Below, piece by piece: positions 2,614 through 23,107 of a stretch of DNA of 64,000 nt (positions are counted from its first letter, which is position 1; each line of letters starts with the position of its first letter). The stretch lies in contig NZ_CP016757.1 in the NCBI RefSeq assembly GCF_001701045.1, forward strand, positions 823,501 to 887,500, read 5' to 3'. The notes beneath the pieces were generated by a model, which worked only from the letters and a program-made list of their open reading frames with translations, was not told the origin of the DNA and searched no databases. The stretch is from Cloacibacillus porcorum (GTDB taxonomy: Bacteria; Synergistota; Synergistia; Synergistales; Synergistaceae). The position numbers were made by a program, and so were the translations under genes.

Positions 2614-2944
2614 TTTTCTCTGCCTCCAAAACAACATTAATTTGATTTCTTATAGAAATAACAACAAATTGCAAATAATATTTCTCAGGGAGACGGTCTT
2701 TAATGAACTAAGAGTATCATTACTATATAATTATTTTATCAAAGTGTTAAATAGACCGAATCGGGCAATATTTATGGTTTGATGGTAATTTGATGAATTA
2801 GTAGGATTATCTTTAAATAGAGTTGCATTAGTTTGTCAATATACCCGATGGTCAAAACGATGCAGTTGAGGGTATCTTTCATGAGGTAAGATTTTGCGTT
2901 GTCTGTTTCGCGGGGAGGCGGATAGACGAAAAGGAGTGAGTGCT
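2614..2944. other. Divergent promoter region yuiF-like / hutH
   Basis: 331 bp of AT-rich DNA between two divergent genes; it must carry both promoters. The motif TTTGATG occurs twice about 10 bases apart near 2775-2795. No confident -35/-10 pair, riboswitch or T-box leader was recognised. Confidence 0.4.
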
Positions 2945-4474
2945 TTGAAAGAAATCGTATTGAATGGAAAAGATCTTACGCTGGAGAGTCTGATACGCAT
3001 AACGAGAAACGGCGCGCAGGTATGCGCGAGCCTTGAGGCGATGGAGGACGTAAAAAAGTCCCGGGCGCTGGTCGAGGAGCTTGTCGCAGGCGGACGCCCA
3101 ATGTATGGCATCAATACCGGATTCGGCAGATTTTCTGAGGTTGCGATACCGGAGGAGGATATAAATCTTCTTCAGATAAAACTTATACTGGCGGATGCCG
3201 CCGGGGTCGGCGCGCCGCTTCCGACCGACGTCGTCCGCGGGATGCTGGTCATGCGTGCGAACTCCCTTCTTAACGGATTTTCCGGCGTACGTCCGGTAGT
3301 CATCAACACCATACTCGATATGCTCAATAGAGGCGTTCATCCCGTGGTGCCGGAGAAGGGCTCGGTCGGTTCAAGCGGAGACCTCTGTCCGCTCGCTCAT
3401 ATGGTGCTGCCGATGATCGGGCTCGGCGAGGCCGAATATAACGGCGTCGTAATGGAGGGGGCCGAGGCGATGGCCAAGGCGAAGATCCCGCTTATCGAGC
3501 TTAAGGCCAAAGAGGGGCTCGCCCTCATCAACGGAACTCAGTGTATGACCTCCGTCGCGGCCCATGTGCTGGCCGACGCCATAACGCTGAAAAAGACCGC
3601 CGACATCGTCGGGGCGCTCACGGTAGAATCCCTTCGCGGAATCAAAAATGCCTACGACCCTCGCATACAGGATGTGCGCCGGCATTCGGGACAGAGAGAG
3701 GCCGCGGAAAACATGCTCCGGCTGCTTGAGGGCAGCGAATATGTTACAACGCAGGGCGAACTGCGTATGCAGGATTCGTATTCGCTGCGCTGTATTCCAC
3801 AAATACATGGAGCCAGCCGTCTTGCTATAGATTATGTCGCCTCCGTCGTGGAGAACGAGATCAATGCCGTCACCGATAATCCGATAGTCCTGGTCGATAC
3901 CGGCGATGTCTTTTCGGGCGGCAATTTCCACGGACAGCCGGTGGCGATAGCGGCAGATACGTTAGGTATCGCGCTCTCAGAGCTGGGTAATATCTCCGAA
4001 CGCCGTATCGCAAAGCTGATAGACCCGGCGCTTAACCACGGGCTTCCCGCCTTTCTCGTCAAGCACGGCGGCATAAACTGCGGCTTCATGATTCCGCAGT
4101 ACGCGGCCGCGGCCCTTGTCTCGGAGAATAAGGTCCTTGCTCACCCCGCGAGCGTAGACTCGATACCCACATCGGCCGGACAGGAGGACCATGTCAGCAT
4201 GGGTACGATAGGCGCGCGCAAAGCGGCGCAGATATTGGAAAATGTCAGGATGGTTCTCGGCATAGAGCTTATGTGCGCCGCCCAGGCTCTTGACCTTCAG
4301 GAAAAGAGGAAACTTGGCGCTGGTACGGAGGCCGCATATAAGGTTATACGCGGCGCGGTGGAGTTTATGGAAGAGGACAGGGTCTTTTATAAAGACCAAA
4401 AGCTGGCTGCAGAGCTTATCGCGGACGGAACGCTTGTCAAGGCCGTCGAAGAGGCGGTCGGCACGTTGAGATAG
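2945..4474 (+). CDS. hutH: Histidine ammonia-lyase
   Basis: Catalyses L-histidine to urocanate plus ammonia, the first step of the Hut pathway. The 509-residue protein has the family layout: GINTGFG near the N-terminus, the prosthetic-group loop GSVGSSGDLCPLAH, NGTQ, the YSLRC-P motif and FSGGNFHGQ. The electrophilic MIO cofactor normally forms from Ala-Ser-Gly; here residues 143-145 are Ser-Ser-Gly (codons TCA AGC GGA at 3371), a noteworthy variant. The start is TTG 2945, 8 bases after AAGGAG; an in-frame ATG at 2894 lacks a ribosome site. It has its own terminator and lies about 6 kb from hutU. Confidence 0.93.
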   Translation: MKEIVLNGKDLTLESLIRITRNGAQVCASLEAMEDVKKSRALVEELVAGGRPMYGINTGFGRFSEVAIPEEDINLLQIKLILADAAGVGAPLPTDVVRGMLVMRANSLLNGFSGVRPVVINTILDMLNRGVHPVVPEKGSVGSSGDLCPLAHMVLPMIGLGEAEYNGVVMEGAEAMAKAKIPLIELKAKEGLALINGTQCMTSVAAHVLADAITLKKTADIVGALTVESLRGIKNAYDPRIQDVRRHSGQREAAENMLRLLEGSEYVTTQGELRMQDSYSLRCIPQIHGASRLAIDYVASVVENEINAVTDNPIVLVDTGDVFSGGNFHGQPVAIAADTLGIALSELGNISERRIAKLIDPALNHGLPAFLVKHGGINCGFMIPQYAAAALVSENKVLAHPASVDSIPTSAGQEDHVSMGTIGARKAAQILENVRMVLGIELMCAAQALDLQEKRKLGAGTEAAYKVIRGAVEFMEEDRVFYKDQKLAAELIADGTLVKAVEEAVGTLR

Positions 4475-4592: not shown

Positions 4593-5232
4593 GGAGAAAA
4601 GGATGGGGAGAAATGAATGTAAAGGTGAAGGTAATAGGTACGCCGTCAATAGAGATCAATGGAGAAGCGCTTCGTCTCCCCCTCAAAAAAGCCGAGGCTA
4701 TAGTCTATTACCTTGCCATAGAGGGGCGCGCCAGCCGTGAAAAGCTGGCTTCCATCTTTTGGGGTACGAAGGACGAAAATTCGGCCTACAATAATTTTCG
4801 AAACGCGCTGTATCTGCTGAAACAATATTTTCCCAAAGATTCGATAATTGCCGACCGCCGCTATGTATCGGCGGCCGGTTTCTCCTGCGACCTGGATATC
4901 ATAGACAGAATAAGCGACGTAGATACGCCTCTGCCGCAGTGTCTTTCCGACGAGCTGCTCAAGGGATTTGATATTCCCGAGTGCGCTGATTTCGGCAACT
5001 GGCTTCTTATCGCCAAATCGCAGTTCAAGACACGCGTGACAGAAAAGCTGAAAACACGCATTACCGCCTGTTATGATTCGCAGGACGAGGATAATCTCGA
5101 GAGCTCGCTTGAGATGCTCATAGCGGCCGACCCCTTTGACGAGGATTCCACGCTGGAACTTATGGATATCTATTTCAAGAGACGCGGAGCGGCGAAGGCA
5201 AGCACTCTCTTCCGCGAGTATAAGCGCCGTCT

Positions 5233-5235
5233 CTC
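5233..5235. repeat. Target-site duplication of the IS3 element (left copy)
   Basis: CTC directly precedes the left IS end and recurs directly after the right end at 6685-6687. A 3-bp duplication is normal for IS3-family elements, and removing one copy restores the regulator frame. Confidence 0.8.
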
Positions 5236-5263
5236 TGAACAGCATCCCGAAAATCGGACAGCC
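5236..5263 (+). repeat. IS3 left terminal inverted repeat
   Basis: Matches the reverse complement of 6657-6684 at 23 of 28 positions; the first seven bases, TGAACAG, match perfectly. Confidence 0.88.
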
Positions 5264-5317
5264 AAATAAAGCCCCTGGATTATAATAAAACTAAATACAT
5301 ATAAAGGGGGATCTTCT

Positions 5318-5761
5318 ATGCGTAAACGTAAAACGGAAGAAAGAATAAGAGCAATTGAGATGCACAAACAGGGAATTCCACGAAGGCGGATTGCTGAAGA
5401 ACTTGGTGTTAGTCCTGATTCTATTAAAACATGGATATCTTTATATAAGAGCGGACAGAAGGACTTACTGGATGATACAAGGAAAAAAAGAACCTACAGC
5501 AAGGCTGTAAAACTTGAAGCTGTTTCGGCTCATTTAGAAGAGGGACGTACTATGGTAGATGTTACCTCATCTTTTAACATTTCAAGTCCCTCTCTTTTAA
5601 GACGATGGTGTAAGGAATTTATCGAACAAGGGGATATTTCTAGTTCAAAACGTGACTGTCCAGATAAGAAATTGGAAGTTACAAATAGCATAGAAAAGAT
5701 CAAAGAGCTGGAAATGCAGGTCGACGTATTAAAAAAAGCCTTAGAGCTGCAAAGGTGGTGA
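5318..5761 (+). CDS. IS3-family transposase OrfA
   Basis: 147 residues with two helix-turn-helix units (about residues 8-50 and 65-105: RRRIAEELGVSPDSIKTW and SPSLLRRWCKEF) and a C-terminal coiled-coil stretch (IEKIKELEMQVDVLKKALEL). OrfA binds the IS ends. AGGGGG precedes ATG 5318. The run of seven A at about 5731, read as TTA AAA AAA, is a plausible -1 slippery site that would fuse this frame to orfB. Confidence 0.92.
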   Translation: MRKRKTEERIRAIEMHKQGIPRRRIAEELGVSPDSIKTWISLYKSGQKDLLDDTRKKRTYSKAVKLEAVSAHLEEGRTMVDVTSSFNISSPSLLRRWCKEFIEQGDISSSKRDCPDKKLEVTNSIEKIKELEMQVDVLKKALELQRW

Positions 5762-6627
5762 TAGAAAGAAATATTAAATACAGAATCATTTTTGAATTTT
5801 CAACAAAACATTCTGTCTGTGGAATGTGTAGATTTTTGTCCGTATCACGCTCTGCATACTACAGTTGGCTAAAGCGGCGTGGAATGGAAGATAAAGACGG
5901 TCCTCTCATAGAAGCAATAAGAACGGGACAGGATATCAACAAAAACACTTATGGGTACAGGCGAATGACTCTGTGGCTCAACAACTTCATTGGCATTCAT
6001 GTAAACAATAAGAGGGTAAGGCGTGTTATGAAAAAAGCGGGACTTCAAGCGGAAATAAGAAAAAAGAAAAAGTTTAAAGTGATGTCAGGAAATATCCACA
6101 GCTATGAGAATATCCTGAACAGAGAATTTCGTTCCGACAGACCAAACCAGAAACTGGTTACTGATATCACATATATACGAACAAAAAAGGGTAATATATT
6201 CCTCTCCATGATAAAAGATCTCTTTGATAATTCCATACAGGGATATCAAATCAGTCGTAATAATAATATTAAGTTAGTAACCGATACATTGAAGAAAGCA
6301 TTTGAAAACAATAATAAGGTGGTCGCTGATGGACCAATCCTCCACAGCGACCAGGGGTTTCAATATACAAGCCATGCATATTTCAACCTGACACAAAGAT
6401 ACGGACTCAAGGTCTCAATGTCAAGGAAAGGAAATTGTTTGGATAATGCATGTGCAGAAAACTTCTTTAGTCACATTAAATCAGAACTCGTCAACCGAGT
6501 AAAATGGGAGAACTACGAGGAGGCCAAAGATGCCATAGACGAATATATAAGGTATTATAATAACGACAGGATACAGATAAAATTGAAAAAGGCTCCGATG
6601 CAATATCGAAGTCTCTTTATTGAATAA
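5755..6627 (+). CDS. IS3-family transposase OrfB, DDE integrase domain
   Basis: 290 residues. An HTH_21-like N-terminal region is followed by the rve/RNase-H-fold catalytic core. The DDE residues are visible in LVTDITYI, ILHSDQGFQYTS and CLDNACAENFFSHIKSE. The frame opens upstream of its GTG at 5755 and overlaps orfA by 7 bases, consistent with translation mainly as an OrfAB frameshift product that cuts and joins the IS ends. Confidence 0.93.
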   Translation: MVIERNIKYRIIFEFSTKHSVCGMCRFLSVSRSAYYSWLKRRGMEDKDGPLIEAIRTGQDINKNTYGYRRMTLWLNNFIGIHVNNKRVRRVMKKAGLQAEIRKKKKFKVMSGNIHSYENILNREFRSDRPNQKLVTDITYIRTKKGNIFLSMIKDLFDNSIQGYQISRNNNIKLVTDTLKKAFENNNKVVADGPILHSDQGFQYTSHAYFNLTQRYGLKVSMSRKGNCLDNACAENFFSHIKSELVNRVKWENYEEAKDAIDEYIRYYNNDRIQIKLKKAPMQYRSLFIE

Positions 6628-6656
6628 ATTTTTGATACCCTTGGGAGCTTTTATAG

Positions 6657-6684
6657 CGCTGTGCGGTTTTCGGGACTCTGTTCA
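6657..6684 (-). repeat. IS3 right terminal inverted repeat
   Basis: Inverted partner of 5236-5263; ends CTGTTCA followed by the duplicated CTC. Confidence 0.88.
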
Positions 6685-6687
6685 CTC

Positions 6688-9112
6688 TGAGGAGCTTTCG
6701 CTTACACCCTCGGCGCGGGCGGAAGAATATTTTAAGCGTATGATAGTTTTGGATACGCATGACGGCGGGATGGGAGATGTTTCGCCGGATTCGTTCTTTG
6801 TCGGCAGAATGAGGGAACAGTCGCTGATCTTTGAACGGCTGGAGAATAACGACGGCACCGTGGCGGTTTTTTTAGACGGCGAGGCGGGGATCGGCAAGAC
6901 ATCGCTGCTCCACAAGGTGTTGTCGTTTTTTGACGGCGAGAGCCATATAATATTGTCGACGAGATCCTACGAGGCGGGGCTGGACTATCCATATTCGTCA
7001 TGGAATAACCTCGTGTCGCAGGCGGCGCTGTATTGTACGGAGGAATCGCCGGAGGACGGCGGGGTAAATTTTTCGCTGCTCGCCGGGGTTTTTCCCAATT
7101 TTATGAGCGGCAGGCGGATAGCTTATAACGCTGATTCCGTCGTTGTTTTGGAGCGGACCCCCATAATCATCGGAAGGGCCGTAAGCCGCCTTGTCTGCCG
7201 CGCCGCCGGCGGCCGGCGTCCAGTTATCGTCCTGGAGGATATGCACTGGTTTGACAAACAGTCTATCCATATGCTCGAAGTGTTTATCGAGAACCTCTCC
7301 GTACCGGCCACGGTATTTATTACGAGCCGTCCGGAAAAGAGCGATTACATAATGCGCACGCTTACACGGCTTAAGGATGCCGGAGCGATCAATTTTCTTC
7401 ATATTCCCCTCAAACCGTTTGACCGCTCGGAGACGGCCTCTTTTTGCAGCCATTTTCTTGATAAAGAGCTGTTGGAATCAAAAGATAAAGACTATTTCTA
7501 TAACGAAACGGAGGGCATGCCGCTGCTGGTGGCTGAGATGGTAAAGCTGCTCAGGGCGAATTCAAAGGCGGAATTTACCGTCAGCGGTCTGGGCGGCGTC
7601 ATGCTCGCCAGATTTGGCGAGATATCGGAAAAGCAGAGGGAATTTCTGCGCGTGCTGTCTGTATTTACAAACGGCGCCAGCATTTCGTTGATCGCCAAGG
7701 TAATGGGAGAGCCGCCCCAGGAGGTCTCGGCGGTGGCGGAAGAGCTTCTGCGCAAGATGCTGATCAAAGAGATAAAGACGATAGACTTTGGCGTGCATGT
7801 CGATTTCAGCCACGCCAAGCTAAGGAGCTGCGTGTACGATGCGATTCCCGGCTTCAAACTCAGCGAGTATCATAAAAAGGTCGCGGACACGCTTAACGGG
7901 CAGTATTCGCCAAGGAAATGGGACCCCGCGCTCAGTTCGATGCTTTGTTACCACTATACTAAGGCCGGGCTGCCGGAGAATGTCCTGAATCAGCATCTGC
8001 GCGAGATGATATTTGATATAACGCTCAACCATGATCTTTTCCCGCTCATCCAGGACGATGTGCTCTATTCCTGTACGCACCCGTACAACGACCGCTCGGA
8101 TACGGAGAAGAAGATGGACGCGATGAGCGCCCTGCTGGCCGATATCAGAAATAATATACGGGCCGATAACGAGAAAGAGATAATGCGGATGGAGGCCTCT
8201 TATCTGGAGCTGTGCGGGGGCTACCTGATCTGCTGGGGAGAATATGACCGGGGTCGGGTCCTCCTGAACCGCGCGATGAAGATAGCGCGCGAACATTCTT
8301 TCTCTACGATATACATCCATTCCCTTTCGAATATGGGGCATTATTTCCTCCAGACGGACAACGCGGAGCCTCTGATGCGCACGGCGCGGGAGATGCTTAA
8401 CGCGGCGCGCGACGATGAACGGGAGAAGTATATGGGCATTGCGCTGCGCTATATCGGCGTCGCCTTTCAAATCATGAGGGATTATGAAAAATCGGAAAAG
8501 GTGCTGCGCCGCTCGATCGCCATCTTTGAGGAACAGGCGCTGCTGGGCAAGAATTATACGCTCAGCATGCTTGCGGCGGAGTGTTATATCGGGGAGAATT
8601 ACCACTGGCAGGGTGATTTTGCGAAGGCAGTGGAGCATTTCAACCACTGTATAAGTGTCTGCGAAGAGAAGGGGCTCTTCTGGGGCAGCAGCCATTTCCG
8701 CGCCCATCTTGCGGATGTCGCTTTTGACCTTGGGGACATGGAGATGATGTTTGAGAATATCTACCGCGGCACGAAGGTCTTTGAACGCTGTCAGGGCGGG
8801 CGCTGCGGCTCCATACTCTACAGTCTGAAGTCGATCGCGGATGCCGAGCAGAAACGTTATGACGACGCCTATCGTTCGCTTGAGATAGGCGAGCTGCTCT
8901 CCGCACCGATAAGAAAGCATTCATGGATATCGGTTCACGCGATGGCCAAGGCCTATCTTGCGAAAATGCTGGAGGAGGGCGGCCTGCCGCCGCAGTTCAA
9001 TAAAATACTTAAAAAATCTTCGAAGGAGTACGCCGAAGAGGCTGTCTCCATTTACGCGAAGATCCCTGTCCCGCATCGGGTGAGAATGCTGCGGGAGCGC
9101 TTCGGCCTCTGA
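6688..9112 (+). pseudogene. SARP-type regulator, 3' half: AAA ATPase and TPR-like repeats
   Basis: Continues the regulator begun at 4613. In the restored protein the BTAD end (RRLSEELSLTPSARAEEYF) runs into FVGRMREQ, the usual entry to an ATPase domain, then Walker A GEAGIGKTS (about residue 271), Walker B VIVLEDMHWFD, and a long helical tail with TPR-like repeats to the C-terminus. Such large activators (LuxR/MalT/SARP relatives) sense a ligand through the repeats and multimerise with ATP. Without its DNA-binding half this fragment should not regulate, unless expressed separately from an internal ATG such as 6739. It ends before a bidirectional terminator. Confidence 0.85.
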
Positions 9113-9208: not shown

Positions 9209-10507
9209 CTAGAAGAGGATATATACGATCGGCGTTGCGATCAGTATTGAAAATACCACCCGCTCAAACCAGATGATGAAAATTTCCCGCATCTTCAGGG
9301 GGATATCCGTCCCTGTGAGGCAGGGCAGCATTCCGGAAAAGAAGAGCACCTCCGAGATGCAGATGACGGCGACGACGAAGCGCGTCGTCAGGGCGGAATC
9401 CCTGCATAATATCGCGGGCAGGAACATGTCCGCGATCGACGTCGACGCGGCCTTGGCGGCCAGCATGGCGTCAGGCATTCCAAGAACCTTAAAGAAGGGG
9501 TAGTATATCCAGGCGGTGTAGTCGAAGAGCGTCGTATATTTTGATATGAGAAGCGCGCTCACGCCGAAAAACATTATCGCGGCGCCCACTCCCGAAGCCA
9601 TCACGATGCCGTAGGTGAAATTGTCTTTTGCGATCTCATAAAGTCCCGGGGCGGTCGCTCCCGTTCTCACCCCGATCTTCCACGCGCGCTCGAACCGGCC
9701 GCCGGTCTCCTCGGTGATATCTCCCTCCGGTACCGCGCCGGGATAAAATGTATCAGGTACGCGGGAGAGCGGCGGAATGCGAAGGGTGATGGACGTTACG
9801 GTAAAGCAGACGACCAGAGTGACCCAGAAATATATGTTCCAGTGCTCGATGATCCCGAGCGTCTTGGCGACGATTATCATAAATGTCGCGGATACCGTGG
9901 AAAAACCGGTTCCGATGATTGCCGCCTCACGCGCGGTGTAGCCGCCCTTTCTGTAGACATTGTTTGTAATGATGAGCCCGACCGAGTAACTGCCGACAAA
10001 AGAGGCGACGGCGTCTATCGCGGCTCTGCCCGGCGTGTGGAATATTGGGCGCATGACCGGAACCATCAGCTCTCCGACACACTCCATGAGACCGTAATTG
10101 ACGAGAAAGGCGAGAAATATTGAGCCTATCGGTATCAGCATCGTAACGGATACCGCCACGGCGTTGAATATATATGGCGCGATATTTTTGTCTAAGAACC
10201 ATTCCGGTCCGATATTAAAATAGACCATCGCGCAGAATGCCGTGCCGATGAGGTTTGTTACGAAGAAAAACGCATCTGTGAACGAAGAGGCGTATTTTTT
10301 CAGCCGCACCGCGCGGGCGACCCCCCAGATGGTGACGATGACCACATAGAGAGCCCCCAGGTGTGGTATTTTTCTTATCAGAGTTATCACGTGGTCGACG
10401 GGAATACTGTTTTTCCCCATAAATGTTATCGGGATGAAAAACATGAATATTCCGATGGCGCTGAAAAACAAAAACTTGAGCGGGCTGTACTGCTGCTGTT
10501 TTTCCAT
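9209..10507 (-). CDS. YjiH-family membrane protein with nucleoside-recognition (Gate) domain
   Basis: 432 residues, strongly hydrophobic, about 9-10 membrane segments, with Gate-type segments such as GSYSVGLIITNNVYRKGGYTAREAAIIGTGFS. YjiH-like proteins are presumed transporters of unproven substrate. It is divergent from hutU and lies inside the hut locus, suggesting import of histidine or a pathway intermediate, or export of a product such as formate or glutamate; this is inference. A paralogue with the same domain order is at 38215. A good ribosome site (GGAAGG) precedes ATG 10507. Confidence 0.75.
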   Translation of the reverse strand: MEKQQQYSPLKFLFFSAIGIFMFFIPITFMGKNSIPVDHVITLIRKIPHLGALYVVIVTIWGVARAVRLKKYASSFTDAFFFVTNLIGTAFCAMVYFNIGPEWFLDKNIAPYIFNAVAVSVTMLIPIGSIFLAFLVNYGLMECVGELMVPVMRPIFHTPGRAAIDAVASFVGSYSVGLIITNNVYRKGGYTAREAAIIGTGFSTVSATFMIIVAKTLGIIEHWNIYFWVTLVVCFTVTSITLRIPPLSRVPDTFYPGAVPEGDITEETGGRFERAWKIGVRTGATAPGLYEIAKDNFTYGIVMASGVGAAIMFFGVSALLISKYTTLFDYTAWIYYPFFKVLGMPDAMLAAKAASTSIADMFLPAILCRDSALTTRFVVAVICISEVLFFSGMLPCLTGTDIPLKMREIFIIWFERVVFSILIATPIVYILF

Positions 10508-12560: not shown

Positions 12561-13820
12561 TTGAAGAAAAAGGCAGCGGATATAGTCATTGAAAACGCCG
12601 CTCAGATACTGACCTGTGAAAAAGATGCCGCGGACCATATAGGGCTTATCAAAAACGGTTCCGTGGCGATAGGTGAGGGTAAGATAACGGCCGTCGGCAG
12701 CCGGAGCGAGATCGCGCCGCTGATCGACGCGGCGACGAGGGTCATCGACGCCTCCGGCAAAGTCGTCACACCCGGTTTCGTCGACTGTCACACCCATGTG
12801 GTATTCGGGGGAACGCGCGTGGAGGAGTATTGCGCCAGGCTGGAGACAGACGACCTTGACGAGCTGAAACGCCGGGGAGTGCCGATGGGGATCATGGTGA
12901 CATTGTCCGCGACCCGAGACCTGCCGATGGAAGAGCTTTACGAACAGTCCGCAGAGCGGGTGCGCCGGATGATATTGAGCGGCACGACGACGATTGAGAG
13001 CAAGAGCGGCTACAGCCTTAATACCGAGGGGGAGATGCGCCAGCTTAAGATAAACCGCATACTCGCGGAAAAATTACCGGTAGATATCTCTTCGACATTT
13101 CTCGGCGCGCACGGCTGGGCTCCCGATATGACGAAAGAGGCGTACATGGATATGCTCATTAAGGAGATGATCCCGGAGGCCGGGAGGAGCGGGCTGGCCG
13201 AGGCCTGCGATATCTGGTGCGACTCGGGGCATTATGAAAAAGAAGAGTGCCGGAAGATACTTGAGGCGGGGCGCGAGCACGGAATGGAGCCTAAGATACA
13301 TGCGGGAGCCTATTCGTATGTCGGCGGCGAGGACCTTGCTGCGGAGATGAAGATGTATTCCGCGGACCATCTTAACTATACTCCGATATCGGCGCTGGAG
13401 AAACTTGCCGAGAGCGGGGTTACCGGCGTCGTCCTTCCGGGGATAGATTTTGCCGTGAATCATCCGCTCTTTTTTAATCCGCGTCCGATGTTCGAGGCGG
13501 GGCTTGAGCTTGGGATGGCCACCAACTGCTGTCCCGGATGCTGGTGTACGTCGATGCCCTTCATAATCTCTCTCGCCTGCAGACAGCACGGAATGCCACC
13601 GGCCCGCGCCCTGCGTGCCGCCACTTACGGAGGCGCCTGTGCACTGAAACGGGAGGACCGTATAGGTTCCATAGAGGCGGGCAAACAGGCCGATATTTTA
13701 ATTCTTGATATCCCGACCTACGAAGATATCGCCTATCGTCTTGGAGAAAACCCGGTGGACACGGTCATAAGACACGGAAAGATAAGCGTTCAGAACGGCG
13801 CTGTCATACAGGAGATATAA
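12561..13820 (+). CDS. hutI: Imidazolonepropionase, divergent active site
   Basis: 419 residues; TTG start after GGAGG. A metal-dependent amidohydrolase expected to open 4-imidazolone-5-propionate to N-formimino-L-glutamate. The metal pair H77 and H79 (DCHTH), GAHGW, KIHA and SADHL are in place. Two positions differ from characterised enzymes: the segment normally HADE reads HAGA, losing the catalytic Glu, and the late metal-ligand Asp in the STD-NPG motif is Asn in ATNCCPG. Operon context and length still support HutI. The final codon abuts the fchA start. Confidence 0.85.
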   Translation: MKKKAADIVIENAAQILTCEKDAADHIGLIKNGSVAIGEGKITAVGSRSEIAPLIDAATRVIDASGKVVTPGFVDCHTHVVFGGTRVEEYCARLETDDLDELKRRGVPMGIMVTLSATRDLPMEELYEQSAERVRRMILSGTTTIESKSGYSLNTEGEMRQLKINRILAEKLPVDISSTFLGAHGWAPDMTKEAYMDMLIKEMIPEAGRSGLAEACDIWCDSGHYEKEECRKILEAGREHGMEPKIHAGAYSYVGGEDLAAEMKMYSADHLNYTPISALEKLAESGVTGVVLPGIDFAVNHPLFFNPRPMFEAGLELGMATNCCPGCWCTSMPFIISLACRQHGMPPARALRAATYGGACALKREDRIGSIEAGKQADILILDIPTYEDIAYRLGENPVDTVIRHGKISVQNGAVIQEI

Positions 13821-14393
13821 ATGAAAATATTTTATGAAGTAGTAGAAAAGATAATGGACAGCAGGGACGTTACGGTTGGCGGAGGCTCGGCCTCCGCTGT
13901 CGCCGGAGCGATGGCCGCGGGGCTTGTGGGGATGGTTTCGCGTCTTTCGGTCGGTAAGGAATACGGCCTTCCCGATGAAAGATACCTTGAGATCGCGGAG
14001 GAGCTTGACGAACTTGCCGTACAGCTAAAAGAGGGCGCGGTAGAGGATACGCGCTCATATCTGGGAATAAAGGCTGCCTTTGCGCTTCCCAAAGCCACCG
14101 ATGAGCAGAAATCCGCGCGCCGCGCGGCGATTGAGAGCGCGGCAATAAGGGCCGCCAATGTGCCGCTGGAAAACGGCCGCGCCGCCCTGCGTATACTGGA
14201 GTTCTGCCGCGAGATGGACGGAAAATTTAACCCCGCGGCCTCGTCGGATATGGAGGCGGGAGTTTTGCTCGCCGAGATGGCCGTTAAAGATACGGCGCTT
14301 AACGTGGAGGCTAATCTTTCACTCATAAAGACGCCGGAGATAAACGAAGAGCTGGCACGGTCGGCCTGCGGGCTCAAAGCCGCGGTACAATAA
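13821..14393 (+). CDS. fchA: Formimidoyltetrahydrofolate cyclodeaminase
   Basis: 190 residues. Converts 5-formimino-THF to 5,10-methenyl-THF and ammonia. The N-terminal GGGSASAVAGAMAAGLVGMV segment is the family hallmark of this all-helical enzyme. It is a stand-alone protein here, whereas in mammals it is fused to the formiminotransferase. ATG follows the hutI stop directly, with the ribosome site (AGGAG) inside the end of hutI, indicating translational coupling. Confidence 0.92.
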   Translation: MKIFYEVVEKIMDSRDVTVGGGSASAVAGAMAAGLVGMVSRLSVGKEYGLPDERYLEIAEELDELAVQLKEGAVEDTRSYLGIKAAFALPKATDEQKSARRAAIESAAIRAANVPLENGRAALRILEFCREMDGKFNPAASSDMEAGVLLAEMAVKDTALNVEANLSLIKTPEINEELARSACGLKAAVQ

Positions 14394-18626: not shown

Positions 18627-19907
18627 TTACCTCAGCCATTGCAGCAGCCCAAGCGAGAAGACGGGAAAGTATGTGAATAGCAGCAGACAGACGACCATCG
18701 CCATGAAAGAGGGCAGTATCGACTTTGAAATACTTTCGATACTTTCACCCGAGATGGCGGAGGCGACAAAAAGGTTTATCCCATAGGGCGGCGAGATGAA
18801 GCCGCAGGCCAGGTTGACGGTGATTATCAGTCCGAAGTGGATGGGGTCTATCCCGATCGTCTTTACCACCGGCAGCAAGATTGGCGTGAGGATTATCACC
18901 GCCGCGATGTTGTCCACGAAGCAGCCGATCACCAGCAGGAAGACGTTTATCACCATCAGCAGGATGAAGGGGCTGTGGGCGAGGCTCGTCATCCACGAGG
19001 CGATATGCGCCGGTATCTGCGCCATCGCGAGGTAACTGGCAAAGGCCATCGAAAGTCCGATCATAAACTCCGTCGCGCCGTTGATGAGCCCCGTCGTGCG
19101 CAGACACTCATAGAGAGTCTTGCCGTCGAGCTCCTTATAGACGAACTTGCCGATGAGCACCGAGTATACGACGGCGACGACCGCCGCCTCCGTGGGCGTG
19201 AAGATGCCGCCGTAGATGCCGCCGAGGATGATGACCGGCACCAGCAGCGCCCAGAAGGCCTCCCTGAATGCCTTCCACACCGTGGAGAACTTCGGGCGTT
19301 CCGTGACGCTCACATAATGACGTTTCTTCGCCGTGCAGTAACAGACCAGCATCAGCGCGATACCGATCATGACGCCGGGGACAATCCCCGCGATAAACAT
19401 ATCGCCGATCGAACACTGCGCGACAATACAGTAAATGACAAAGGGTATAGAGGGCGGGATGATGACGCCGATAGTTCCCGCCGCCGCGGTTATCGCCGCC
19501 GCGAAGCCCGCGTCATACTTGCGCTCCTTCATCGATGGGATCATAAAAGAGCCGATCGCCGAGACAGTGGCCGGTCCCGAACCGGAGATCGCGGCGAAAA
19601 ACATACATGCGAGCACCGTGACCATCGCCAGGCCGCCCGTGATATAACCGACGAGACTCTCGGCGAGATTCACAAGACGGCGCGAAATACCGCCGTTGCA
19701 CATCAGCGCCCCCGCGAGAATGAAAAATGGTATGGCGAGCAGCGGGAAAGAATCAAGACCAGTCACCGACTTCTGTGCGAGCATCACCATCGGGATATCC
19801 GAAGTGAGCCACATGGCGATGCCGGTAGAGAGGCCGAGCGTGATGCCGATCGGGATACTCAGGCCGATCGTTACGATAAGGATAGAAAAAACTATGACGG
19901 CTTCCAT
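18627..19907 (-). CDS. dctM: TRAP transporter large permease DctM (copy 1)
   Basis: 426 residues, about 12 membrane segments; the 4TMs-type large subunit that forms the substrate path of Na+-coupled TRAP importers. Signatures include SVTGLDSFPLLAIPFFILAG and GTIGVIIPPSIPFVIY. It overlaps the dctQ stop by one base (TGATG). It is almost identical in DNA to the copy at 21827-23107, exactly 3200 bp away, differing mainly in the last 35 codons. No dctP accompanies this copy, so it may share the binding protein encoded at 23703. Confidence 0.94.
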   Translation of the reverse strand: MEAVIVFSILIVTIGLSIPIGITLGLSTGIAMWLTSDIPMVMLAQKSVTGLDSFPLLAIPFFILAGALMCNGGISRRLVNLAESLVGYITGGLAMVTVLACMFFAAISGSGPATVSAIGSFMIPSMKERKYDAGFAAAITAAAGTIGVIIPPSIPFVIYCIVAQCSIGDMFIAGIVPGVMIGIALMLVCYCTAKKRHYVSVTERPKFSTVWKAFREAFWALLVPVIILGGIYGGIFTPTEAAVVAVVYSVLIGKFVYKELDGKTLYECLRTTGLINGATEFMIGLSMAFASYLAMAQIPAHIASWMTSLAHSPFILLMVINVFLLVIGCFVDNIAAVIILTPILLPVVKTIGIDPIHFGLIITVNLACGFISPPYGINLFVASAISGESIESISKSILPSFMAMVVCLLLFTYFPVFSLGLLQWLR

Positions 19908-21826: not shown

Positions 21827-23107
21827 TTATCTCAGTACATTAAGCAGCCCCATAGTAAAGATGGGGAAGTATGTGAATAGCAGCAGACAGACGACCATCG
21901 CGAAGAACGACGGCAGAATGGCCTTTGAGATATCCTCGATGCTCTCGCCGGAGATGGCGGAGGCGACGAAGAGGTTTATACCATAGGGCGGCGAGATGAA
22001 GCCGCAGGCCAGGTTGACGGTGATTATCAGTCCGAAGTGGATGGGGTCTATACCGATTGTCTTTACCACCGGCAGCAGGATCGGCGTGAGGATTATCACC
22101 GCTGCGATGTTGTCCACGAAGCAGCCGATCACCAGCAGGAAGACGTTTATCACCATCAGCAGGATGAAGGGGCTGTGGGCGAGGCTCGTCATCCACGAGG
22201 CGATATGCGCCGGTATCTGCGCCATCGCGAGGTAACTGGCAAAGGCCATCGAAAGTCCGATCATAAACTCCGTCGCGCCGTTGATGAGCCCCGTCGTGCG
22301 CAGACACTCATAGAGAGTCTTTCCGTCGAGCTCCTTATAGACGAACTTGCCGATGAGCACCGAGTATACGACGGCGACTACCGCCGCCTCCGTGGGCGTG
22401 AAGATGCCGCCGTAGATGCCGCCGAGGATGATGACCGGCACCAGCAGCGCCCAGAAGGCTTCTCTGAATGCCTTCCACACCGTGGAGAACTTCGGGCGTT
22501 CCGTAACGCTCACATAATGGCGCTTCTTCGCCGTACAGTAACAGACCAGCATCAGCGCGACGCCGATCATGACGCCGGGGACGATCCCCGCGATAAACAT
22601 ATCGCCGATCGAACACTGCGCGACGATACAGTAAATGACAAATGGGATGGAGGGCGGGATGATGACGCCGATAGTTCCCGCAGCCGCGGTTATCGCCGCC
22701 GCGAAGCCCGCGTCATACTTGCGCTCCTTCATCGATGGGATCATAAAAGAGCCGATCGCCGAGACAGTGGCCGGTCCCGAGCCGGAAATTGCCGCGAAAA
22801 ACATACATGCGAGCACCGTGACCATCGCCAGGCCGCCCGTGATATAACCGACGAGACTCTCGGCGAGATTCACAAGACGGCGCGAAATACCGCCGTTGCA
22901 CATCAGCGCCCCCGCGAGGATGAAAAAGGGAATGGCGAGCAGCGGGAAAGAATCGAGACCCGTGACCGACTTCTGCGCGAGCATCACCATCGGGATATCC
23001 GAAGTGAGCCACATGGCGATGCCGGTAGAGAGGCCGAGCGTGATGCCGATCGGGATACTCAGGCCGATCGTTACGATAAGCAGAGAGAAGAGAATAACCG
23101 CTTCCAT
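21827..23107 (-). CDS. dctM: TRAP transporter large permease DctM (copy 2)
   Basis: 426 residues, last gene of the larA-acnX-dctPQM operon. Same signatures as copy 1, with about a kilobase of nearly unchanged DNA. The C-terminal FTYFPIFTMGLLNVLR is also the sequence left in the deletion scar at 885. It should supply the transmembrane uptake path for the substrate handled by the LarA-like and AcnX proteins encoded upstream. Confidence 0.95.
   Translation of the reverse strand: MEAVILFSLLIVTIGLSIPIGITLGLSTGIAMWLTSDIPMVMLAQKSVTGLDSFPLLAIPFFILAGALMCNGGISRRLVNLAESLVGYITGGLAMVTVLACMFFAAISGSGPATVSAIGSFMIPSMKERKYDAGFAAAITAAAGTIGVIIPPSIPFVIYCIVAQCSIGDMFIAGIVPGVMIGVALMLVCYCTAKKRHYVSVTERPKFSTVWKAFREAFWALLVPVIILGGIYGGIFTPTEAAVVAVVYSVLIGKFVYKELDGKTLYECLRTTGLINGATEFMIGLSMAFASYLAMAQIPAHIASWMTSLAHSPFILLMVINVFLLVIGCFVDNIAAVIILTPILLPVVKTIGIDPIHFGLIITVNLACGFISPPYGINLFVASAISGESIEDISKAILPSFFAMVVCLLLFTYFPIFTMGLLNVLR

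Follow-up and report, generated by a model that had tools for sequence, protein, structure and literature searches.

The window analysed here, a 64,000-nucleotide stretch of the Cloacibacillus porcorum genome, holds an open reading frame (12561-13820, carrying PKIHAGAYSYVGG and MATNCCPGCWCTS) whose product passes the curated score for imidazolonepropionase, HutI, yet lacks residues that the family keeps in its active site. This raises the question of what the protein, here called HutI2, acts on. Its features are as follows.

12561-13820, + strand: HutI2, imidazolonepropionase-like amidohydrolase, 419 aa, TTG start; TIGR01224 348.5 bits against a cut-off of 298.15; clade of 24 members
12789-12797, + strand: H77-x-H79, metal-binding HTH motif, kept in 24/24 clade members
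13299-13310, + strand: H247-A-G-A250, metal His kept, Ala at the Glu252/Gln site (alignment to 2bb0)
13368-13370, + strand: H270, equivalent to His272 of 2bb0 and kept (alignment to 2bb0)
13524-13532, + strand: N322-C323-C324, Asn for Asp324 and Cys for Asn326 of NPG (alignment to 2bb0)

The first-pass annotation had claimed that the HADE segment of this gene reads HAGA, with loss of a catalytic Glu, and that the late metal-ligand Asp is Asn in ATNCCPG. Both substitutions held upon phmmer alignment with B. subtilis HutI (2bb0): HAGA fell opposite HADE and ATNCCPG opposite ATDFNPG, which places A250 at Glu252, N322 at Asp324 and C324 at Asn326. The annotation had allowed for an acidic residue at these positions once its by-eye alignment was corrected, but none appeared at either site in the sequence alignments; the phmmer and clade-wide alignments were concordant, ruling out misalignment as the source of the changes. 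A third change, NPG to CPG, had not been mentioned. The label "catalytic Glu" was too strict, since the Glu252 site is Gln in 2gok and 2oof (HAEQ and HMDQ in the phmmer alignment); the canonical residue is thus Glu or Gln. We take Glu252 to have a role towards the ring nitrogen of the substrate.

HutI2 shares with canonical imidazolonepropionases (EC 3.5.2.7, TIGR01224; 2bb0, 2g3f, 2gok, 2oof and 2q09) the fold (Z of about 51-53), the HTH motif, both further His residues, Arg86 and a score above the cut-off. It differs from them in having Ala for Glu/Gln, Asn for Asp and Cys for the Asn of NPG, and is only 36-41% identical to them. The predicted model (mean pLDDT 88.6) matched 2gok, 2bb0 and 2g3f with Z of about 53 (53.2 to 2gok, 52.7 to 2bb0) over 399-400 residues at an rmsd of 2.2. 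However, residues 321-330, which include N322, averaged a pLDDT of only 65, and the occupant of the Asp site is therefore not settled by the model.

The changes were then placed in the family. A set of 153 HutI-like matches gave 127 distinct rows, which were sorted by the presence of Cys324; 24 of them, the window copy included, carried this Cys. Position 250 was Ala in 18 and Gly in 6 of these 24 proteins, and H77, H79, H247 and H270 were kept in all. Among the 103 proteins outside the clade, the same position was Glu in 87, Gln in 14, Gly in 1 and a gap in 1, and the Asn of NPG was present in 102, with one gap. The Cys324 proteins formed a single group in a tree (SH-aLRT 96), which was built by a quick method from 125 rows with two fragments and the window copy (L022) left out. 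Of 120 genomes searched in the class, 13 encoded a protein 50-100% identical to HutI2, all of which have Asn at position 322 and either Ala or Gly at position 250; below these came a gap, the remaining matches listed being at most 39% identical. Further relatives, from the best 80 of at least 599 stretches in a contig scan biased towards relatives of the query, came from Bacillota, Actinomycetota and one delta-proteobacterial bin. Since the changes are fixed across several phyla, chance mutation or damage to HutI2 was ruled out.

As the annotation had proposed, we looked for Asp or Asn at position 322 in homologues: Asn was found in 18 and Asp in 6 of the 24 clade members, against 97 Asp, 4 Asn, 1 Gly and 1 gap among the 103 others. 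Asp was retained in HutI2 of Actinomycetota and Viridibacillus, and three of the four Asn proteins outside the clade come from Actinomycetota, where they accompany a HutI2 that has Asp. Thus, Asp and Asn appear interchangeable in the HutI family and do not mark the substrate, which weakens what can be drawn from the Asp-to-Asn change. Indeed, the idea that this change underlies a new reaction was rejected, since loci with an Asn-type (L059) and an Asp-type HutI2 (Viridibacillus, L069) both continue with an M20 hydrolase, and since Asn also occurs in the other HutI of three Actinomycetota. The clade markers are the loss of Glu/Gln and the gain of Cys.

Some other cases deserve mention. A Neofamilia massiliensis protein (L070, 9992-11242), the sole HutI match in its genome, adjoins the HutI2 clade in the tree and has Asn at the Asp site with Glu and NPG kept. 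The HutI of Tsukamurella has Asp at the Asp324 site. Corynebacterium resistens was dropped as an example of a tested Asn-type HutI, the pathway described for it being a predicted one. In Parabacteroides massiliensis (L074), a HutI-like protein (451 bits) reads HADG and ASGLNPE, without Glu and Asp, and no HutU match was found in that genome.

In a further step, the surroundings of HutI2 were analysed. The following genes lie around it.

2894-4474, + strand: HAL2, histidine ammonia-lyase paralogue, Asp at the His83 site, MIO triad SSG
4613-9109, + strand: large regulator-like gene, broken into 4613-5242 and 6611-9109, defined by tblastn with an intact 1023-aa relative (L133)
9209-10507, - strand: Gate-family (nucleoside recognition) membrane protein, possible transporter; PF07670 52.6 bits
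10731-12449, + strand: HutU2, urocanate hydratase paralogue whose active-site motifs differ from the canonical ones; TIGR01228 620.4 bits, NF058531 645.3 bits (cut-off 880, not reached)
13821-14393, + strand: FchA2, cyclodeaminase-type protein; PF04961 146.3 bits, 36% identical to FchA1 of the same genome
14402-15307, + strand: FtcD2, glutamate formimidoyltransferase paralogue; TIGR02024 387.3 bits, 40% identical to FtcD1 of the same genome
15484-17166, + strand: formate-tetrahydrofolate ligase; NF010030 928.5 bits, cut-off 652

HAL2, HutU2, HutI2, FchA2, FtcD2 and the ligase lie on one strand, and the set is broken between HAL2 and HutU2 by the regulator-like gene and by the Gate-family gene on the opposite strand. 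Relatives of the Gate-family protein adjoin HutI2 in three other loci (L132, L141 and L066). The regulator-like gene is split by an insertion-sequence-like element (5236-6684) with inverted arms of 35 nt (5236-5270 and 6650-6684) and two transposase-like ORFs (5318-5761 and 5755-6627); its relatives of about 1016-1023 aa are intact in L132, L133, L140 and L141. Downstream of the set, two TRAP-type large-subunit ORFs (18627-19907 and 21827-23107) are 97% identical, each adjoined by a small-subunit ORF.

HutI2 had been described as part of a complete hut operon. The gene content is complete, but a search of the whole genome (3,585,187 bases, one contig) showed that the set is a second, paralogous one: a canonical HutI (448 bits) lies elsewhere, clustered with FchA, a 677-aa HutU, HutH and FtcD, which rules out the initial assumption that there is only one hut operon. 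A third HutU occurs at another place, and the genome encodes six HAL-like proteins at E <= 1e-100. Some HAL-like proteins have a gap at ASG and so lack the MIO triad, and may be ergothionase-like; they were seen in this genome (L186 and L192) and at similar loci.

HutI2 was not the only member of the second set with an altered active site. The site of His83 was Asp in 16 and Asn in 3 of 19 HutI2-associated HALs, and His83 was kept in all 18 other HAL-like proteins of the same Synergistota genomes. This count includes a HAL about 12 kb away on the same contig (G068) and one on a different contig (G098); L053, L056, L058 and G037 contributed none and L054 only a fragment. In G. kaustophilus HAL (GkHAL), replacement of the corresponding His (H82L) is reported to have abolished activity on L-histidine (PMC11432326). 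In HutU2, TFE[ST]E replaces RETE and ANY[SA]MG replaces the HHGGGVG loop in all 16 sequences inspected, along with further motif changes; the Viridibacillus HutU2 was assigned by score alone. Relative to the window copy, HutU2 was 84-97% identical in Synergistota loci and 66-76% in delta-proteobacterial, Bacillota and Actinomycetota loci.

These observations, with three pathway paralogues (HAL, HutU and HutI) together in the window and a canonical hut set elsewhere in the genome, suggest a change of substrate rather than damage. Of the two explanations offered by the annotation, a different residue set or related chemistry, the second fits best, because the substrate sites of HAL and HutU are altered and the canonical set coexists. 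The database name of HutI2 is imidazolonepropionase; considered with its neighbours, it more likely serves methylated histidine. We think it probable that HutI2 is the third enzyme, an amidohydrolase, of a paralogous hut-type pathway for tau-N-substituted histidine, with N-tau-methyl-L-histidine (3-methylhistidine) as the most likely substrate. Against this stands the placement of HutI2 by NCBIfam above the imidazolonepropionase cut-off.

From the sequences and their neighbourhoods, we infer the substrate, the position of the methyl group and each of the reactions. HAL2 would take off ammonia to give N-tau-methylurocanate, which HutU2 would hydrate to an N-methylated imidazolonepropionate. HutI2 would then open this ring with the usual metal and His270, and loss of the Glu/Gln that would meet the ring N-H would leave space for the methyl group. 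HutI cleaves the bond between the carbonyl carbon and N-tau, so that N-tau becomes the terminal formimino nitrogen. The methyl group would thus remain on the formimino nitrogen, and FtcD2 and FchA2, which are paralogues too, would hand the C1 unit to tetrahydrofolate with release of methylamine instead of ammonia. Formate-tetrahydrofolate ligase would earn ATP.

The genes that follow HutI2 lead us to read the next step as acting on formiminoglutamate or a close analogue. An FtcD2-type gene follows in 14 of the 17 anaerobe loci scanned, the window included; it was missing at L136 and L137, and the L056 contig ends inside HutI2. In one Arthrobacter locus, formimidoylglutamate deiminase (HutF) follows instead, and in the Brevibacillus and Viridibacillus loci an M20 hydrolase. 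That FtcD and FchA, too, have paralogues of their own in the second set suggests that the difference is still there at their steps, which would place it on N-tau. FchA2-type genes were found in only 8 of the 17 anaerobe loci, and FchA1-type genes in 3. No methylamine genes were found among ten neighbours scanned, two of which are high-GC frames without a family and possibly not genes.

A soil Bacillus pathway reportedly converts N-tau-methylhistidine to L-glutamate and N-methylformamide. The M20 hydrolase at the end of the Brevibacillus and Viridibacillus loci fits these products. Bacterial N-tau-methylhistidine degradation has been published (Beliaeva, Atac, Seebeck, ACS Chem Biol 2022, doi 10.1021/acschembio.2c00437); this pathway appears to resemble that of the window in having lyase, hydratase and amidohydrolase paralogues beside the canonical hut genes. 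In contrast, the set in the window continues with FtcD2, FchA2 and formate-tetrahydrofolate ligase, and not with the hydrolase of the N-methylformamide route, which suggests a fermentative variant. Pathways of this kind are known; what seems to make the present one a variant is its folate tail in anaerobes, together with an active site that has Asn and lacks Glu. Text searches of the literature open without subscription returned nothing useful on N-methylurocanate in bacteria.

More tentatively, and with slightly less than even confidence, we propose that anaerobic Synergistota ferment 3-methylhistidine through this folate-coupled branch: FtcD2 would move the N-methylformimino group to tetrahydrofolate, FchA2 would free methylamine, the ligase would make ATP, and HutI2 would hydrolyse its substrate without the usual Asp and Glu. 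We infer this tail, which is uneven across loci. 3-Methylhistidine has long served as an inert marker for the breakdown of muscle protein; if the proposed pathway holds, gut-type and soil bacteria can consume it. The HutI2 clade moreover offers a natural series (Asp or Asn, and Glu or Gln versus Ala or Gly) for the residues that an amidohydrolase needs.

We then asked how HutI2 is distributed relative to canonical enzymes. Of 23 HutI2-bearing genomes searched, 17 also had a canonical HutI (8 of the 13 from the class and 9 of the 10 from outside it), and by score the same 17 genomes held HutU2 together with a canonical HutU; pieces were counted for canonical HutU in G068 and G122 and for canonical HutI in G128. 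Another genome (G129) held HutI2 and HutU2 without canonical HutI or HutU. In the remaining five (G073, G098, G037, G104 and G067; 86-96% complete), HutI2 was the sole HutI and canonical HutU the sole HutU. HAL carried Asp83 in four of these genomes, and the fifth had no HAL at E <= 1e-100. In G104, HutI2 lies in one cluster with HAL, FtcD2, formate-tetrahydrofolate ligase, HutU1 and FchA1. HutI2 of these five genomes thus seems to work behind an ordinary urocanase. They are the main evidence against a strictly methyl-specific role: either HutI2 serves ordinary histidine there, or HutU handles both substrates. In Specibacter cremeus (G122), canonical HutU occurs at two places (contigs C33 and C2), each time as two pieces in overlapping frames.

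These five genomes, the single G104 cluster and the TIGR01224 score would also suit an ordinary imidazolonepropionase isozyme with another residue set, the second hut set being a histidine pathway for other conditions. We consider this unlikely, since canonical HutI coexists in most of the genomes and since the substrate sites of HAL and HutU changed at the same time, the HAL position being one that is reported to be essential for L-histidine in GkHAL.

Less likely still is a role of the second set in breaking down a different histidine analogue, such as N-pi-methylhistidine or a histidine substituted at C2. The NCBIfam hydratase model scoring highest with HutU2 is S-methyl thiourocanate hydratase (NF058531), although its cut-off is not reached, and a related Burkholderia HutU is found beside ErtD and ErtE, which are hydantoinpropionate enzymes. 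In ergothioneine-type pathways, which comprise these two enzymes and the hydratases for thiourocanate and S-methyl thiourocanate, HutU is likewise altered: 8q9u, of the hydratase type closest to HutU2 in NCBIfam, also lacks the Arg of RETE. However, the window has a MIO-type HAL with a full triad position and no ErtD or ErtE, and HutU2 falls below the cut-offs of both hydratase models. C2 substituents are disfavoured because FtcD2, HutF and the M20 hydrolase all expect an intact formimino carbon, unsubstituted, as does the route through formate-tetrahydrofolate ligase. N-pi-methylhistidine would end as N-methylglutamate, and no enzyme for this compound was seen in the HutI2 neighbourhoods scanned. 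That HutI2 is a catalytically dead paralogue retained for another role, as loss of the usual metal ligand and of Glu/Gln might suggest, is very improbable, given that no clade member has lost either metal-binding His motif or His270, that some otherwise canonical HutIs likewise have Asn in place of the Asp and that five genomes have no other HutI.

The Burkholderia-type HutU, encoded on plasmids of Burkholderia ambifaria and Paraburkholderia graminis (L260 and L261), is 57% identical to HutU2 and shares some of its motifs. Its neighbours are a HAL with the ordinary Ser-His, a deaminase-like amidohydrolase, ErtD and ErtE, and this cluster is possibly another histidine-analogue pathway, carried on conjugative plasmids.
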